Source of the DNA: Oceanibacterium hippocampi
Lineage (GTDB): Bacteria > Pseudomonadota > Alphaproteobacteria > Sneathiellales > Sneathiellaceae
Assembly (NCBI RefSeq): GCF_900172325.1
Contig: NZ_FWFR01000006.1
Location: 1 to 64,000, forward strand
DNA length: 64,000 nucleotides
Reading direction: 5' to 3'
Shown here one piece after another: positions 42,653-51,763 of the stretch. The position numbers and the translations under genes were made by a program. The notes beneath the pieces were generated by a model. The model searched no databases and was not told the DNA's origin. It worked only from the letters and a program-made list of their open reading frames with translations. Position 1 is the stretch's first letter. Each line of letters begins with the position of its first letter.

Positions 42653-42686
42653 AGGGCCGGTGCAAAATGCACCGGCCCTCAGCCTT
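42653..42686. terminator. Strong terminator between flgH and dksA
   Basis: A perfect 12-bp stem (AGGGCCGGTGCA / TGCACCGGCCCT) with an AAA loop is followed by CAGCCTTTTC. The genes converge here, so it can serve both. Confidence 0.85.
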
Positions 42687-46364: not shown

Positions 46365-47198
46365 TCAGCTCCGGAACAGGCTGAGGATCGACTGCGGCGC
46401 CGAGTTGGCGATAGAGAGCGCCTGCACGCCGAGCTGCTGCTTGACCTGCAGCGACTGCAGCTTGGCGCTTTCGACCGCCATGTCCGCATCGACCAGGTTG
46501 CCGATGCCTGCATCCAGGCTGTCGATCAGCTTGCTGACGAAATTGTTGTGGATCTCGAGGCTCTTCGAACCGGTGCCGAGCACGCCGAGGCGCTGGTTGA
46601 CCGTCAGGATCGCGTTCTCGATCGCGGTGACCGCGGCCTGGGCGTCTGTCGTCGTCGTCAGCCCCTCACCCGAGATATTGAGACCGGTCGCGCCCACCGA
46701 CAGGTCCTGCGCGGCCACCGTGATGGTATTGGTGCCGTCCTCGTTGGCGATCGAGACGACATCGTCGCCGTTCGCCTTGATGATGTTCAGGCCGTTGAAC
46801 TCGGCATTGGTGACGATCGTGGTGATCTGCTGCATCAGCGCCTGGAAATCGGCATCCAGCAGGGTCTTGGAGACCGTGTCCATGCCGTTGTCGGCGGCGA
46901 GCACGGCCTTTTCCTTCATCTCGATCAGGATGTCCGAGATCGCCCGCCCGCCGGCGATCGCTACATCGACCGCGCTGACCGCGTTCGAGAGCGCCGTCGA
47001 AACGGAATGCAGACCTCCGACGGATCCGCGCATGTTCTGCGCGATCGCGAAAATGGAGGCATTGTCCTGGGGACCCGAGATCTTCAGACCGGTGTTGATC
47101 CGGTTCTGGTTCTGGGCAAGGTCCTGCGCTGTCTTGTTGAGATTCTGCAGCGCGGTCATCGCACCGATATTGGTGTTCACGGACATCGAAACGGCCAT
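46365..47198 (-). CDS. Flagellin 1
   Basis: Starting at MAVSMSVNTNIGAMTALQNL, with GAGGAG seven bases upstream, gives 277 residues. The D0/D1 domains are typical: NQNRINTGLKISGPQDNASI near the N-terminus, and VESAKLQSLQVKQQLGVQAL with IANSAPQSILSLF at the C-terminus. The central D2-type region is short. It is noticeably divergent from flagellins 2 and 3 (for example GGRAISDILIEMKEKAVLAA and the segment GATGLNISGEGLTTT) and has a different mRNA leader, so it may be a minor or basal filament subunit. Confidence 0.95.
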   Translation of the reverse strand: MAVSMSVNTNIGAMTALQNLNKTAQDLAQNQNRINTGLKISGPQDNASIFAIAQNMRGSVGGLHSVSTALSNAVSAVDVAIAGGRAISDILIEMKEKAVLAADNGMDTVSKTLLDADFQALMQQITTIVTNAEFNGLNIIKANGDDVVSIANEDGTNTITVAAQDLSVGATGLNISGEGLTTTTDAQAAVTAIENAILTVNQRLGVLGTGSKSLEIHNNFVSKLIDSLDAGIGNLVDADMAVESAKLQSLQVKQQLGVQALSIANSAPQSILSLFRS

Positions 47199-47223
47199 CG
47201 ATCTTCTCCTCGAACTCACGTTG

Positions 47224-47238
47224 CCGGCATTCGGCCGG
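47224..47238 (-). promoter_or_regulatory. Leader hairpin of flagellin 1 mRNA
   Basis: On the minus strand CCGGC-CGAAT-GCCGG forms a five-bp stem with a five-base loop, about nine bases after the predicted transcription start. It differs from the paired hairpins in front of flagellins 2 and 3. Confidence 0.4.
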
Positions 47239-47258
47239 ATATTCTCCTCAACTACTTA

Positions 47259-47273
47259 GCAATCGTCGTGCCA
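47259..47273 (-). promoter_or_regulatory. Sigma-54 promoter of flagellin 1
   Basis: The minus strand reads TGGCACGACGATTGC, an exact match to TGGCACG-N4-TTGC. The start is expected near 47247, leaving a leader of about 49 bases. Confidence 0.88.
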
Positions 47274-47527: not shown

Positions 47528-48343
47528 TTACCTGAACAGGCTGAGGATCGACTGCGGGGCCTGGTTCGCAATCGACAGCGCCTGGAGGCCGAGCTGCTGC
47601 TTGACCTGCAGTGACTGCAGTTTCGCACTTTCGACCGCAAGATCGGCATCGACCAGGTTGCCGATACCGCGATCGAGCGAGTCCTGCAGCTCCGTGACGA
47701 AGGAGGAATGGACCTCGAGCGCCTTCGCGCCGGTGCCCAGCGATCCGAGGCTGGTATTCAGGCTCGTGATCGCCGCATCGACCGCGGTGATGGCGGTCGA
47801 CGCATTGGTCCCCGTCGTCAGGTCGTTCGACGTGATGCTCAGACCGGCCAGAGACAGATCCTGCGCGGCGACGGTGATGGTGTTGGTGCCGTCGGAGTTG
47901 GCAATCGTCACCACATCGTCACCACTCGCCTTGATCATGTTGATGCCGTTGAACTCGGCATTGTTCACGATCGTGGTGATCTGCGTCTTCAGGGCCTGGA
48001 AGTCGTTGTCCAGGGCGGTACGCTGATCCGTCGTGAGACCGGAATCGGCGGCGAGAACCGCCTTTTCCTTCATCTCGATCAACAGACCGGCGATGCCCGA
48101 GCCAGCGGAAAGCGCGACATCGACGGAGGAGACGCCATTCTCGAGGGCAGTCTTCACCGAGCGAATACCGGCCACTTCCGACCGCATCGTCTGGGCAATA
48201 GCGAAGACCGCGCCGTTATCCTTGGCGGTCGACACCTTGAAACCCGTGTTGATGCGGTTCTGGGTCATCTCAAGCGCGTTGTTGGTCTTGTTCAGGTTCT
48301 GGAGCGCGATCATCGCGCCGACGTTGGTGTTGACGGACATCAT
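47528..48343 (-). CDS. Flagellin 2
   Basis: The start is the first of two adjacent ATGs (MMSVNTNVGAMIALQNLN), downstream of AGGAGA; 271 residues. Conserved ends are TQNRINTGFKVSTAKDNGAV and VESAKLQSLQVKQQLGLQAL with IANQAPQSILSLFR. By eye it is very close to flagellin 3 over most of its length (LIEMKEKAVLAADSGLTT, TIVNNAEFNGINMIKASGDD). It has its own sigma-54 promoter and a two-hairpin leader shared with flagellin 3. Confidence 0.96.
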   Translation of the reverse strand: MMSVNTNVGAMIALQNLNKTNNALEMTQNRINTGFKVSTAKDNGAVFAIAQTMRSEVAGIRSVKTALENGVSSVDVALSAGSGIAGLLIEMKEKAVLAADSGLTTDQRTALDNDFQALKTQITTIVNNAEFNGINMIKASGDDVVTIANSDGTNTITVAAQDLSLAGLSITSNDLTTGTNASTAITAVDAAITSLNTSLGSLGTGAKALEVHSSFVTELQDSLDRGIGNLVDADLAVESAKLQSLQVKQQLGLQALSIANQAPQSILSLFR

Positions 48344-48367
48344 GGTCAGGGTTCTCCTAGGCTTGAT

Positions 48368-48395
48368 TAGCGTTCTGCTATCGGGCGTTTTGCCC
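48368..48395 (-). promoter_or_regulatory. Two-hairpin RNA leader of flagellin 2 mRNA
   Basis: On the minus strand the predicted mRNA starts almost directly with GGGC-AAAAC-GCCC, two spacer bases, then TAGC-AGAAC-GCTA. Both are 13-nt hairpins with four-bp stems. The same element with a compensatory stem change stands before flagellin 3. It ends 24 bases before the start codon, just ahead of the ribosome-binding site. A role as FlbT-binding or mRNA-stability element is inferred. Confidence 0.6.
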
Positions 48396-48408
48396 TGCCC
48401 CACAGAAA

Positions 48409-48423
48409 GCAATCACCGTGCCA
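48409..48423 (-). promoter_or_regulatory. Sigma-54 promoter of flagellin 2
   Basis: The minus strand reads TGGCACGGTGATTGC, an exact consensus match. The transcription start would be near 48397, immediately before the leader hairpins. Confidence 0.88.
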
Positions 48424-48508
48424 ATCGGGACTTTCCCATAACTCATTGATATTATTTATGTAAATCAAATTCCCGAGCCCGCCGGCAGCAACGGAACATG
48501 ACCTGCCC

Positions 48509-48521
48509 GGCAATCCCTGCC
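48509..48521. promoter_or_regulatory. FlbD/ftr-like palindrome upstream of flagellin 2
   Basis: GGCAATCCCTGCC is an exact GGCA-N5-TGCC, about 86 bases upstream of the sigma-54 promoter. A GGCA half site lies at 48484-48487. Confidence 0.5.
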
Positions 48522-48573
48522 TGGCTGGCCGGGGCGAAATGACCCCCTCACACCGCGCGGACGGCCTCGACAC

Positions 48574-48601
48574 AAAAAAAGACCCGCCGGAATGGCGGGC
48601 C
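48574..48601 (-). terminator. Terminator after PEP-CTERM gene
   Basis: CCCGCC (48583-48588) pairs with GGCGGG (48594-48599), and the minus strand continues into seven T residues. Confidence 0.75.
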
Positions 48602-48654
48602 TTGAAGTGGGTAACAAGTCGGTCCGTCAAGACCTTGAGAGAGGAACCACTGAA

Positions 48655-49287
48655 CTACACGATCCGGCGCCGCCGCACGGCGAACACGAGAAGCCCGATA
48701 CCGAGCATGAAGAGGATGAGGAACGGCGGTTCCGGCACTTCCGTCGACAGGCTGACCTGATCGAGCAGGGCGCCGATATTGTCGCCGCCGACGCCGGAGA
48801 TGCGGAGCGATGCCGAGGTCGCGTCGGTGACGGTGATCTCGAAACTGTACCGGGTCCAGCTCTGGTTGCCCTCGACCTCGATCTCCTTGCTGAAGAGATC
48901 GCCGAGCGCGACGATGACCTTGTCGCCGCTTCGCGTCCGCTGGTTTCCCGAGAGCCAGAACTCGAGCGTGTAACTGCCCGGCGCGAGCGCCAGGGCCGCG
49001 GTCTGGAGGCCGCCGGCCTTGCCGGTCGAGCCGTCGAGGTCGACGCAATTGCCGTCGTCGCCGAGGCAGTTGATCGAGTAATCGCTGTTGTAGACGATAT
49101 CGACCGTGCCGTCGAAAATGGACCAGTTGTCGTCGCCCAGCCAGTTCAGGTCGGACATCCGCGACCTGCCTTCGTTGCCGTCGGCCACGCCATCGAAATT
49201 GTCGGAGAAGATGACGCCCGCCTGGGCCCCGGTGGCGATCCCGACGGCGAGGGCGATACCACCGACAATCCTGCTGATCCTGCGCAT
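48655..49287 (-). CDS. PEP-CTERM sorting-signal protein
   Basis: The start at MRRISRIVGGIALAVG gives 210 residues with a signal peptide (cleavage near GAQAG). The mature part is beta-rich (VIFSDNFDGVADGNEG, SYTLEFWLSGNQRT, ASASLRISGVGGDNIGALLD), resembling carbohydrate-binding-type jelly rolls of secreted PEP-CTERM proteins. It ends with VPEPPF, a hydrophobic helix and RRRR, the exosortase recognition tail. It is therefore expected to be exported and processed by an exosortase/EpsH system encoded elsewhere. Its position between two flagellin genes is unusual. Confidence 0.88.
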   Translation of the reverse strand: MRRISRIVGGIALAVGIATGAQAGVIFSDNFDGVADGNEGRSRMSDLNWLGDDNWSIFDGTVDIVYNSDYSINCLGDDGNCVDLDGSTGKAGGLQTAALALAPGSYTLEFWLSGNQRTRSGDKVIVALGDLFSKEIEVEGNQSWTRYSFEITVTDATSASLRISGVGGDNIGALLDQVSLSTEVPEPPFLILFMLGIGLLVFAVRRRRIV

Positions 49288-49308
49288 CTCGATCCTTCTC
49301 CCCGCGCT

Positions 49309-49332
49309 GTCGCCGGTTGAACCGGTGGCGAC
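49309..49332. repeat. Interrupted inverted repeat upstream of PEP-CTERM gene
   Basis: GTCGCC and GGCGAC flank an inner GGTT-GA-ACC, centred about 33 bases before the gene's start. It may be an operator or a leader hairpin; there is no further evidence. Confidence 0.3.
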
Positions 49333-49446
49333 TGCATTCGTCATGAATTCGGCTAAAATTTGAACTTTCGGTCCGGCGGATTGGCCATCCCGCGTCCCTC
49401 GTTCCCGAGGCGAGGCAGGCTTCAGCGGCGTTTCCGTTCCTGGCCT

Positions 49447-49827
49447 TCAGACCTGCTTGTCAACAGAGAGCCCGGACAATCCCCGGAAGTAGGCGATACG
49501 TTTCAGCGCCTCTTCGCTCGGGAACTGCTTGATCACCTCGCCGTCCTCGTTGTTCACGAGGAGGTAGACGAAGTTGTTGGACTCCTTGTGGAAATCGACA
49601 GCAAAGCGGGCATTGGGATAATCGGGTAACTGCACCGCGCTGTTCAGTGTCGTTTCCAGAATCTCGCGGAGGCTCTTGCGTTCGTCCTTGACGTCCGCTT
49701 CTTCCTCGCGCTTGACAATCGGCTCGACGGTCTCGCTTTCCTTCTTTGCGGGACGCGTCTCGGCGGTGGCTTTCACCTCGCCGACGCCGCGGGTCTGCGC
49801 CAGTCCTGGTAATGCGGATATATTCAT
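49447..49827 (-). CDS. flaG: FlaG-like protein
   Basis: The 126-residue protein has a low-complexity charged N-terminal half (AETRPAKKESETVEPIVKRE) and a compact C-terminal domain: ARFAVDFHKESNNFVYLLVN, then NEDGEVIKQFPSEEALKRIA. This matches the FlaG family (F-..-D-..-..-V-.-V-D-..-G-EVI-Q-P). FlaG influences filament length in other bacteria. It lies between flagellin 3 and the PEP-CTERM gene. Upstream there is a near-palindrome GACCATTCGAACGGTC (49851-49866). Confidence 0.82.
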   Translation of the reverse strand: MNISALPGLAQTRGVGEVKATAETRPAKKESETVEPIVKREEEADVKDERKSLREILETTLNSAVQLPDYPNARFAVDFHKESNNFVYLLVNNEDGEVIKQFPSEEALKRIAYFRGLSGLSVDKQV

Positions 49828-49850
49828 GACGTTTCGTCCATAAACATATC

Positions 49851-49866
49851 GACCATTCGAACGGTC
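49851..49866. promoter_or_regulatory. Near-palindrome upstream of flaG-like gene
   Basis: GACCATTCGAACGGTC is symmetric around TTCGAA except for one pair and lies 24-39 bases before the start codon. It could be an operator; no protein is suggested by the sequence. Confidence 0.3.
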
Positions 49867-49929
49867 ACTTGCTCACTCGACCGCTCACTCTCCAGTTACC
49901 GGGGTTGATTCATCGTGCGAACGCTGACC

Positions 49930-49959
49930 GGGGAATGGCGCTGGTGGGCGCCATTCCCC
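49930..49959 (-). terminator. Hairpin after flagellin 3 gene
   Basis: A perfect 12-bp stem (GGGGAATGGCGC / GCGCCATTCCCC) with a six-base loop lies eight bases beyond the flagellin 3 stop. The T run is missing, so it may act mainly as an mRNA 3' stabiliser. Confidence 0.7.
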
Positions 49960-49967
49960 GACGGCCA

Positions 49968-50789
49968 TTAACGGAAGAGGCCGAGAAGCGTCTGCGGGGC
50001 CGAGTTGGCGATCGACAGCGCCTGGAGGCCGAGCTGCTGCTTGACCTGCAAGGACTGAAGTCGGGCGCTTTCCACGGCGAGGTCGGCGTCGACCAGGTTG
50101 CCCACACCGCGTTCCAGCGAGTCCTTCAGTTCGCCGACGAAGCTCGAATGGACCGAGAGCGCCTTGGCGCCGGTGCCGAGCTGGCCGAGCGAGCTGTTCA
50201 GTGTGGTGAGCGCTGCATCGACCGCGGTGATGGCGGTCGAGGCGTTGGTCCCGGTCGTCAGGTCGTTGGCCGAGATGCTGAGGCCGGCCAGAGACAGATC
50301 CTGCGCGGCGACCGTGATCGTGTTGGTGCCCGAGGAGTTGGCGATCGAGACGACGTCGTCGCCCGAAGCCTTGATCATGTTGATGCCGTTGAACTCGGCG
50401 TTCGACACGATCGTGGTGACCTGGGTCTTGAGGGCCTGGAAGTCGTTGTCCAGGGCCGTGCGCTGCGCCGTCGTGAGGCCGGAATCGGCGGCGAGAACCG
50501 CTTTTTCCTTCATCTCGATGAGCAGGTCGCCGATGCCCGAACCGGCCGAGAGGGCCACGTCCACCGCCGAGACGGCGTTGTCGAGGGCGGTCTTGACGCC
50601 GTTGATGCCGGCGACTTCGGCCCGCATCGTCTGGGCGATCGCGAAGATGGCGCCGTTATCCTTGGCGCTGGAGACTTTCAGGCCCGTGTTGATACGGTTC
50701 TGAGTCATCTCGAGGGAATTGTTGGTCTTGTTCAGGTTCTGCAGCGCAATCATCGCGCCGACATTGGTATTCACTGAAAAGCCAGCCAT
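49968..50789 (-). CDS. Flagellin 3
   Basis: The 273-residue protein (MAGFSVNTNVGAMIALQNLN) follows AGGAG by eight bases. It shares nearly all blocks with flagellin 2 (MTQNRINTGLKVSSAKDNGA, LIEMKEKAVLAADSGLTTAQ, AVESARLQSLQVKQQLGLQA) and ends IANSAPQTLLGLFR. It has a sigma-54 promoter, a two-hairpin leader and an array of enhancer-like palindromes. It and flagellin 2 are probably the major filament subunits. Confidence 0.96.
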   Translation of the reverse strand: MAGFSVNTNVGAMIALQNLNKTNNSLEMTQNRINTGLKVSSAKDNGAIFAIAQTMRAEVAGINGVKTALDNAVSAVDVALSAGSGIGDLLIEMKEKAVLAADSGLTTAQRTALDNDFQALKTQVTTIVSNAEFNGINMIKASGDDVVSIANSSGTNTITVAAQDLSLAGLSISANDLTTGTNASTAITAVDAALTTLNSSLGQLGTGAKALSVHSSFVGELKDSLERGVGNLVDADLAVESARLQSLQVKQQLGLQALSIANSAPQTLLGLFR

Positions 50790-50814
50790 TACCGGTACTC
50801 CTGTTCTAGGGTCT

Positions 50815-50842
50815 GAGCGTTCTGCTCCGGGGCATTTTGCCC
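50815..50842 (-). promoter_or_regulatory. Two-hairpin RNA leader of flagellin 3 mRNA
   Basis: The minus strand reads GGGC-AAAAT-GCCC, two spacer bases, then GAGC-AGAAC-GCTC. Loop AGAAC, stem lengths and spacing equal those of flagellin 2, while the outer pair of the second stem changes from T-A to G-C, which preserves pairing. It ends 25 bases before the start codon. Confidence 0.6.
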
Positions 50843-50856
50843 ACGTCCCTTACACA

Positions 50857-50871
50857 GCAAGTCGCGTACCA
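50857..50871 (-). promoter_or_regulatory. Sigma-54 promoter of flagellin 3
   Basis: The minus strand reads TGGTACGCGACTTGC, one change from TGGCACG-N4-TTGC. The start is expected near 50845, just before the leader hairpins. Confidence 0.82.
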
Positions 50872-51012: not shown

Positions 51013-51378
51013 TCAGCCGGCGGGCTCGGCGGCCTGGCGCGCGGCAAGGCCTTCCATGATGTTCCGGTTGACGTCGATGAGGGCGGAAATGTCGGCATCG
51101 CCACGCATCGTCTGGGAGCTGTACTTGCCGACCCAGAGCGCGATCGAGATCAGGTTGGCGCGAAGCGCGGCCGGCAGGCCGTTCGCCTCCTGGGACAGGT
51201 CGTTGCTCAGCGCATTCCAGACCTGACGGTTCCAATGCACGGCATCGACGAACTTGCGTTCGTAGGGCTTCATCTCGCGGGCCTCGATGAGGGCCCGGGT
51301 AACCTGCGCGAAGAGGCGATACTCGACGCTACGCGGACTGCCGGTGTTCTTCTGTATCTGCTGATACGCCTGAAGCAT
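51013..51378 (-). CDS. flaF: Flagellar biosynthesis regulator FlaF
   Basis: Starting at MLQAYQQIQKNTGSPRSVEY gives 121 residues with the FlaF pattern (LFAQVTRALIEARE, FVDAVHWNRQVWNALSNDLS, then ALRANLISIALWVGKYSS). In Caulobacter, FlaF promotes and FlbT restrains flagellin translation. The start lies inside flbT: the two genes overlap by 50 bases, and the ribosome-binding site is within flbT coding sequence. Confidence 0.93.
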   Translation of the reverse strand: MLQAYQQIQKNTGSPRSVEYRLFAQVTRALIEAREMKPYERKFVDAVHWNRQVWNALSNDLSQEANGLPAALRANLISIALWVGKYSSQTMRGDADISALIDVNRNIMEGLAARQAAEPAG

Positions 51379-51763
51379 CGCCAAGCCTTTCCTTCTCATA
51401 CGCGATCAAACGCTTGGCCAGGGCGAGCGCCTTGTAGTAGCGCGCGTCCATGACCTCCTTGCTGACGGCGACGCAAAGCGTCTTGCCCTCGCCGCTGACA
51501 AGCGCGGCCATCAGTTCGGTCATCCGGACCACGAATTCCTCGTAGTAGGTGGCCCGGTTCGCCTCGTCGATATACATCATCATGACCGAGAAATAGATCC
51601 GCCGGGCGGGCGAGTTGACGTCGCTTTCCTGGAGGATGTCGCGCTCGCGCAGGATCGCGGCGCGGTTCTTGATCACGAGATTGGAGCGCCGGTCGCCATT
51701 GGCGATCACGGCACCGTTCACGACCAGTTGTTCGTTCGGCTTCAGCGACAGTTTCAGTGCCAT
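51329..51763 (-). CDS. flbT: Flagellin translational repressor FlbT
   Basis: The ATG of MALKLSLKPNEQLVVNGAVI gives 144 residues. The FlbT hallmarks are the N-terminal ALKLSLKPNE, NLVIKNRAAILRERDILQE, ARRIYFSVMMMYIDEANRAT and KEVMDARYYKALALAKRLI. FlbT binds flagellin mRNA leaders in Caulobacter and promotes their decay when the basal body is incomplete. Two flagellin leaders in this window have a shared hairpin pair that would be a natural target. Confidence 0.94.
   Translation of the reverse strand: MALKLSLKPNEQLVVNGAVIANGDRRSNLVIKNRAAILRERDILQESDVNSPARRIYFSVMMMYIDEANRATYYEEFVVRMTELMAALVSGEGKTLCVAVSKEVMDARYYKALALAKRLIAYEKERLGDASGVSADTEEHRQSA

Follow-up and report, generated by a model that had tools for sequence, protein, structure and literature searches.

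The flagellin locus and its leader hairpins

In the 64,000-nt stretch of Oceanibacterium hippocampi DNA analyzed here (hereafter, the window), three flagellin genes lie on one strand together with the genes for FlbT, FlaF and FlaG, all within 6 kb. Flagellins 1 and 3 are 67% identical. A gene for a PEP-CTERM protein (48655–49344, minus strand) is located inside this flagellin cluster, between flaG and the flagellin 2 gene. The features of the locus considered below are as follows.

47224–47238, minus strand: flagellin 1 leader hairpin, CCGGC-CGAAU-GCCGG, with a loop unlike ARAAN
47528–48343, minus strand: flagellin 2 gene (Flagellin_N, Flagellin_C)
48347–48359, minus strand: flagellin 2 third hairpin, UAGG-AGAAC-CCUG, with the Shine-Dalgarno GGAG within the 5' arm and loop
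48368–48380, minus strand: flagellin 2 leader hairpin 2, UAGC-AGAAC-GCUA
48383–48395, minus strand: flagellin 2 leader hairpin 1, GGGC-AAAAC-GCCC
48409–48423, minus strand: flagellin 2 sigma-54-like -24/-12 element, TGGCACGGTGATTGC (from sequence)
49968–50789, minus strand: flagellin 3 gene
50800–50810, minus strand: flagellin 3 third hairpin, CCU-AGAAC-AGG, overlapping the Shine-Dalgarno AGGAG
50815–50827, minus strand: flagellin 3 leader hairpin 2, GAGC-AGAAC-GCUC
50830–50842, minus strand: flagellin 3 leader hairpin 1, GGGC-AAAAU-GCCC
50857–50871, minus strand: flagellin 3 sigma-54-like -24/-12 element, TGGTACGCGACTTGC (from sequence)
51013–51399, minus strand: flaF, flagellin secretion chaperone / FlbT partner (PF07309, E = 1e-33)
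51329–51763, minus strand: flbT, candidate hairpin reader (PF07378, E = 1e-41)

The leaders of flagellins 2 and 3 carry the same two-hairpin pattern, as the initial annotation of this DNA had claimed. The joint pattern GGGCAAAAYGCCCNNNAGCAGAACGCT gave two exact 27-base matches, both on the minus strand, at 48369–48395 and 50816–50842, with none expected in shuffles. The two hairpins are separated by the 2-nt spacer that had been described (GA in flagellin 2 and CG in flagellin 3), stem 2 ends 24 and 25 nt before the ATG as annotated, and the reported compensatory outer pair of stem 2 is indeed T-A in one leader versus G-C in the other. The count of two hairpins per leader did not hold: both are present, but a third hairpin, also with an AGAAC loop, lies at the Shine-Dalgarno and had been overlooked. 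The third hairpin of flagellin 3 was absent from the single-sequence minimum-energy fold. C-ARAAN-G hairpins with a stem of at least 4 bp occur five times in the whole 64 kb, four of the five being the flagellin 2 and 3 leader hairpins, and tandem pairs of such hairpins numbered zero in shuffles. The folding energies of the window leaders by themselves were unremarkable (z of -1.2 and -1.4, not significant); the evidence for leader structure comes from comparison. Elsewhere in the window, a perfect hairpin of 11 bp with an AAAAU loop (42653–42679) lies between two convergent ORFs, and is probably a bidirectional terminator and not a leader.

Position of the hairpins relative to the promoters

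Elements of the form TGGCAC/TGGTAC-N5-TTGC are found upstream of both window leaders. At sigma-54 promoters, the first transcribed base is about 12 nt downstream of the -12 C, and the start predicted on this basis lies 2–3 nt before stem 1 in the window leaders. Among 60 flagellin leaders with a sigma-54-like element, drawn from the relatives and the window, the distance from the -12 C to the start of the first loop was 16–19 nt in all but one (59/60). This fixed distance from the sigma-54-like promoters would place hairpin 1 at the 5' end of the mRNA, beginning at about +1 to +4 across the 60 leaders.

An RNA family preceding flagellin genes

A scan of named genomes, using flagellin 3 as the query, yielded 76 loci from Maricaulaceae, Kordiimonadales, Hirschia, Minwuia and others. 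In these relatives, loop 1 of the array is usually AAAAN (an AGAA tetraloop in Maricaulis), loop 2 is usually AAAAN or AGAAC, and the Shine-Dalgarno hairpin is often CUCC-AAAAA-GGAG or UCUC-AGAAYG-GAGA; the loop consensus of the family is A(A/G)AAN, with a C-G closing pair. A short-pattern genome search for the array was too unspecific and was discarded. With a covariance model built from 12 of the relatives' leaders, window sequences excluded, the flagellin 2 and 3 leaders took ranks 1 and 2 in the 64 kb (E values of 0.010 and 0.026, with the next match at 1.6). Over 97 sources, the covariance model gave 111 matches; every match within the loci was on the flagellin sense strand, and 47 of the 48 extra matches were directly upstream of other flagellin ORFs.

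The first alignments, made with MAFFT, put gaps inside the stems, so a gap-free set was used instead. In the loop-anchored alignment, in which pairing played no part, 89 of the 95 cells of stem 1 (AAAAN class) were paired, where 2000 shuffles averaged 71 and never exceeded 80; for stem 2 the figure was 127 of 145, against a shuffled mean of 94 and a maximum of 110. In the model-fitted alignment of 111 leaders, which is biased toward structure in a way that the loop-anchored alignment is not, standard pairs accounted for 96.3% of the paired cells, all ten pairs varied on both sides somewhere (214 such cells versus 51 shuffled), and the covariation score was 0.604 versus 0.173 shuffled and at most 0.087 slid. 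The loop and the C-G closing pair are nearly invariant and the stems change freely. The ARAAN loop looks like a protein-recognition code. The further covariation seen in related flagellin leaders, together with the fixed promoter distance, the sense-strand matches and the placement before flagellin genes, strongly supports the earlier proposal that a predicted RNA structure at the 5' end of the flagellin mRNA is under selection. Of the two outcomes that the initial annotation had named as refuting it, an absence of further covariation and starts mapped downstream of the hairpins, neither was encountered, the starts here being predicted ones.

The window leaders are members of an RNA family found before flagellin genes across the Alphaproteobacteria and absent from Rfam, where no relevant match was obtained at gathering thresholds or at E values up to 10. 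RF01736 (flg-Rhizobiales), a flagellar-gene leader, was rejected as a parent family, as it gave no match in the window or in the O. hippocampi genome, where it stayed below the family cut-off; none of 58 genomes of the class had a match above that cut-off, and none was found in nine array-bearing loci. RF01736 comprises three stem-loops (PMC3765529) and occurs in Rhizobiales (PMC2864571). Three stem-loops are common to RF01736 and the window leaders, which are set apart by model score.

Co-occurrence with FlbT and possible exchange with CsrA-FliW

In an even, class-wide draw of 240 alphaproteobacterial genomes, FlbT was found in 81 and flagellin domains in 145. An ARAA hairpin, counted if its stem had 4 bp or more and it lay no further than 100 nt from the start, preceded 39 of 69 flagellins near FlbT; for other ORFs of these loci the figure was 32 of 796 (p = 2e-29). 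The remaining 30 of the 69 leaders had no such hairpin at this threshold. ARAA hairpins also preceded 8 of 15 flagellins located elsewhere in FlbT genomes. In genomes lacking FlbT, they preceded 2 of 45 flagellins, both from genera that have an FlbT-bearing member. The fitted model (R2), run genome-wide over the draw, was specific and insensitive, matching seven genomes, six of them with FlbT. Over the loci scanned, the array is restricted to flagellin leaders, and it co-occurs with FlbT. Spot checks revealed an AGAA Shine-Dalgarno hairpin before the FljK-like flagellins L346 and L350, whose genomes (G146 and G201, 94% and 88% complete) had no detected FlbT; G146 also encodes CsrA and FliW. 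Either these assemblies happen to lack FlbT or there are exceptions to the rule, and since AGAA hairpins occur in genomes without detected FlbT, flagellin lineage confounds the association with FlbT.

FlbT and FliW were mutually exclusive among the 145 flagellin-bearing genomes, with 79 carrying FlbT only, 40 FliW only, none both and 26 neither (p = 1.8e-18); the overlap with CsrA in the same FlbT comparison was 2. One genus (g123) has one FliW genome and one FlbT genome. In the O. hippocampi genome (G000), FlbT is present, and CsrA and FliW were not found. The flagellin leaders of FliW genomes have the same scaffold of tandem pentaloop hairpins with CsrA-type loops, AGGAN/AGGUA (L209, L211, L217, L223, L233 and L237–L239 among others), examples being GGUUAGC-AGGAA-GCUAAC, GGAAC-AGGUA-GUUCC and, at the Shine-Dalgarno, AUUCC-AGGAA-GGAAU. 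These hairpins of FliW-bearing Alphaproteobacteria are apparently CsrA sites. Upstream of the Shine-Dalgarno region, CsrA-type loops were present in 18 of 33 leaders of FliW genomes versus 9 of 69 leaders of FlbT genomes, and ARAA loops in none of the 33 flagellin leaders of FliW genomes.

In Campylobacter, CsrA represses flaA via a pair of GGA hairpins, of which the second covers the ribosome site, and the authors of that study named FlbT/FlaF as a possible analogous system (PMC4894983). CsrA/FliW leaders resemble the window family in that they are short, their hairpins stand in tandem, the stems covary around loops of identical sequence, and the last hairpin lies over the ribosome-binding site; they differ from it in having ANGGA instead of ARAAN loops; the GGA expected in the hairpin loops of a CsrA target does not occur in loops 1 and 2 of the window leaders (AAAAY and AGAAC). 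The reciprocal distribution of FlbT and CsrA-FliW suggests two interchangeable ways to match flagellin synthesis to flagellum assembly.

FlbT as the candidate reader

Post-transcriptional regulation of flagellin by FlbT was recognized more than two decades ago. According to reviews, FlbT of Caulobacter represses flagellin mRNA up to the completion of the hook-basal body (PMC3930126), this repression requires the flagellin FljJ (PMC7591256), and FlbT is reported, with citation of Anderson & Gober 2000, to bind the flagellin 5' UTR (PMC3930126, PMC4347634). The FlbT of Brucella was proposed to be an activator (PMC4347634), which counts against a repressor reading, and the same 2015 review left the FlbT binding motif blank and called the mechanism unresolved. 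The Caulobacter fljK 5' UTR is like the window leaders in being a flagellin mRNA leader, in a flbT-flaF genome, of the same hairpin family. The Caulobacter-genus leaders, so assigned by 98% identity to FljK, carry GUGGGC-AAAAC-GCCCAC, GUC-AAAAU-GAC and, at the Shine-Dalgarno, CCU-CGAAU-AGG before an FljK-like gene, and were matched by model R2, itself built without Caulobacter-genus sequences. Their loops are AAAAC, AAAAU and CGAAU, compared with AAAAY, AGAAC and AGAAC in the window, where the flagellin 2 and 3 leaders are likewise 5' leaders of flagellin genes in an FlbT-bearing genome. We infer from these leaders that ARAAN loops are probably what FlbT reads; a covarying array common to the window, Kordiimonadales, Maricaulaceae and Caulobacter makes the question of the FlbT target directly testable by loop mutation.

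Our preferred reading, to which we assign a probability of roughly 0.7, is that the leaders are protein-binding hairpin arrays, most likely the operator of FlbT and a counterpart of the CsrA hairpins. Since matched base changes preserve the array before flagellin genes in FlbT-bearing relatives, it is probably a docking site for FlbT, and the co-occurrence with FlbT, the exclusion of FliW and the membership of the Caulobacter leaders indirectly support FlbT as the binder. The array may control mRNA decay or translation. In the mechanism that we propose, flagellin mRNA would start with two pentaloop hairpins of the form stem-C-A(A/G)AAN-G-stem, with a third at the Shine-Dalgarno, and FlbT, encoded 0.5 to 3 kb upstream, would bind their loops. 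Bound FlbT would keep the ribosome-binding site closed and promote decay of the flagellin mRNA, and this repression would last until the hook-basal body is complete, a mode of action similar to that of CsrA on GGA-loop flagellin leaders in bacteria with CsrA and FliW. A protein-read hairpin leader on flagellin mRNA is known in kind; the ARAAN loop code in FlbT-bearing Alphaproteobacteria, most likely forming the FlbT operator, is new.

Flagellin mRNAs need to be abundant, and hairpin 1 begins only a few bases from the predicted start, as would suit a structured 5' end that, independently of FlbT, shields these mRNAs against 5'-end-dependent decay and leaves the ribosome site accessible. Stems would suffice for such protection, yet the A(A/G)AAN loop and C-G pair are near-invariant while the stems vary, and the array is nearly missing in FlbT-less genomes; we therefore consider a plain mRNA stabilizer unlikely and set it aside on account of the near-invariant loops that track FlbT. 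The link to FlbT is correlative, and the array might be read by another factor, such as Hfq, which can bind A-rich single strands, an as yet unrecognized protein, or a small RNA that base-pairs with the loops. This appears improbable, since the motif tracks FlbT and, within the loci searched, occurs only in flagellin leaders, and CsrA, a known reader of flagellin leaders, is absent from the O. hippocampi genome. That the inverted repeats function at the DNA level, for instance as an operator for a sigma-54 activator, is very hard to maintain and was likewise set aside, for although they lie just downstream of sigma-54-like promoters, it is on the sense strand alone that their loops are A-rich, every locus match is on the flagellin strand, their spacing is fixed relative to the start, the array extends into the Shine-Dalgarno, and Caulobacter-genus and sister-genus leaders retain the hairpins despite a weak or missing sigma-54 site.

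Comparison of FlbT with CsrA

The predicted structure of FlbT (pLDDT 89) has five short strands first and then helices, in the same order as in CsrA. Profile comparison aligned residues 3–40 of FlbT to residues 2–45 of CsrA, N-terminus to N-terminus, pairing the invariant E11 of FlbT with the invariant E10 of CsrA and the near-invariant R39 with the invariant R44. The hhalign score of FlbT versus CsrA was 22.8, whereas 100 column shuffles gave no score above 16.7 and 41 unrelated windows none above 15.2. The match of the FlbT N-terminus had a P value of 2e-4 to 6e-4 and a probability of just 30–50%. No Pfam CsrA match was found among 76 FlbTs, and a Foldseek search of the full-length FlbT model against the PDB gave no significant fold match, CsrA included; the single-chain AlphaFold model of CsrA was itself of low confidence, as is to be expected of a protein that forms an intertwined dimer. 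These comparisons point to a weak resemblance of the FlbT N-terminus to CsrA, which we regard as a lead and not as a claim of membership. We tentatively entertain, at somewhat less than even odds, the idea that FlbT is a far-diverged RNA-binding protein of the CsrA fold, and that the FlbT/ARAAN and CsrA-FliW/AGGAN pairs interchange on one leader scaffold. If this were true, the number, place and size of the hairpins would have stayed constant, and the loop code and its reader protein would have changed.

Flagellin 1 and other flagellins with different leaders

The flagellin 1 leader (47198–47273, minus strand) has a sigma-54-like site and three predicted hairpins, with loops GAAUA, CGAAU and one containing GGAG. 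The initial annotation had given flagellin 1 a different single hairpin; the difference in loops was borne out, and the single hairpin was not quite correct. The CGAAU loop is common to the flagellin 1 hairpin and the Shine-Dalgarno hairpin of the Caulobacter leaders. Flagellin 1 may be regulated separately from flagellins 2 and 3 and could, speculatively, be an FljJ-like regulatory flagellin or co-repressor.

The second flagellins of Maricaulis-group genomes (L042, L053, L056, L058, L062, L063, L066, L073 and L075, upstream of 2995) have neither a sigma-54 site nor the array, and have a different leader, possibly representing an FljJ-type class. The sequence CCAACCGAAAACAGGUUGG is conserved in several of these second-flagellin leaders.
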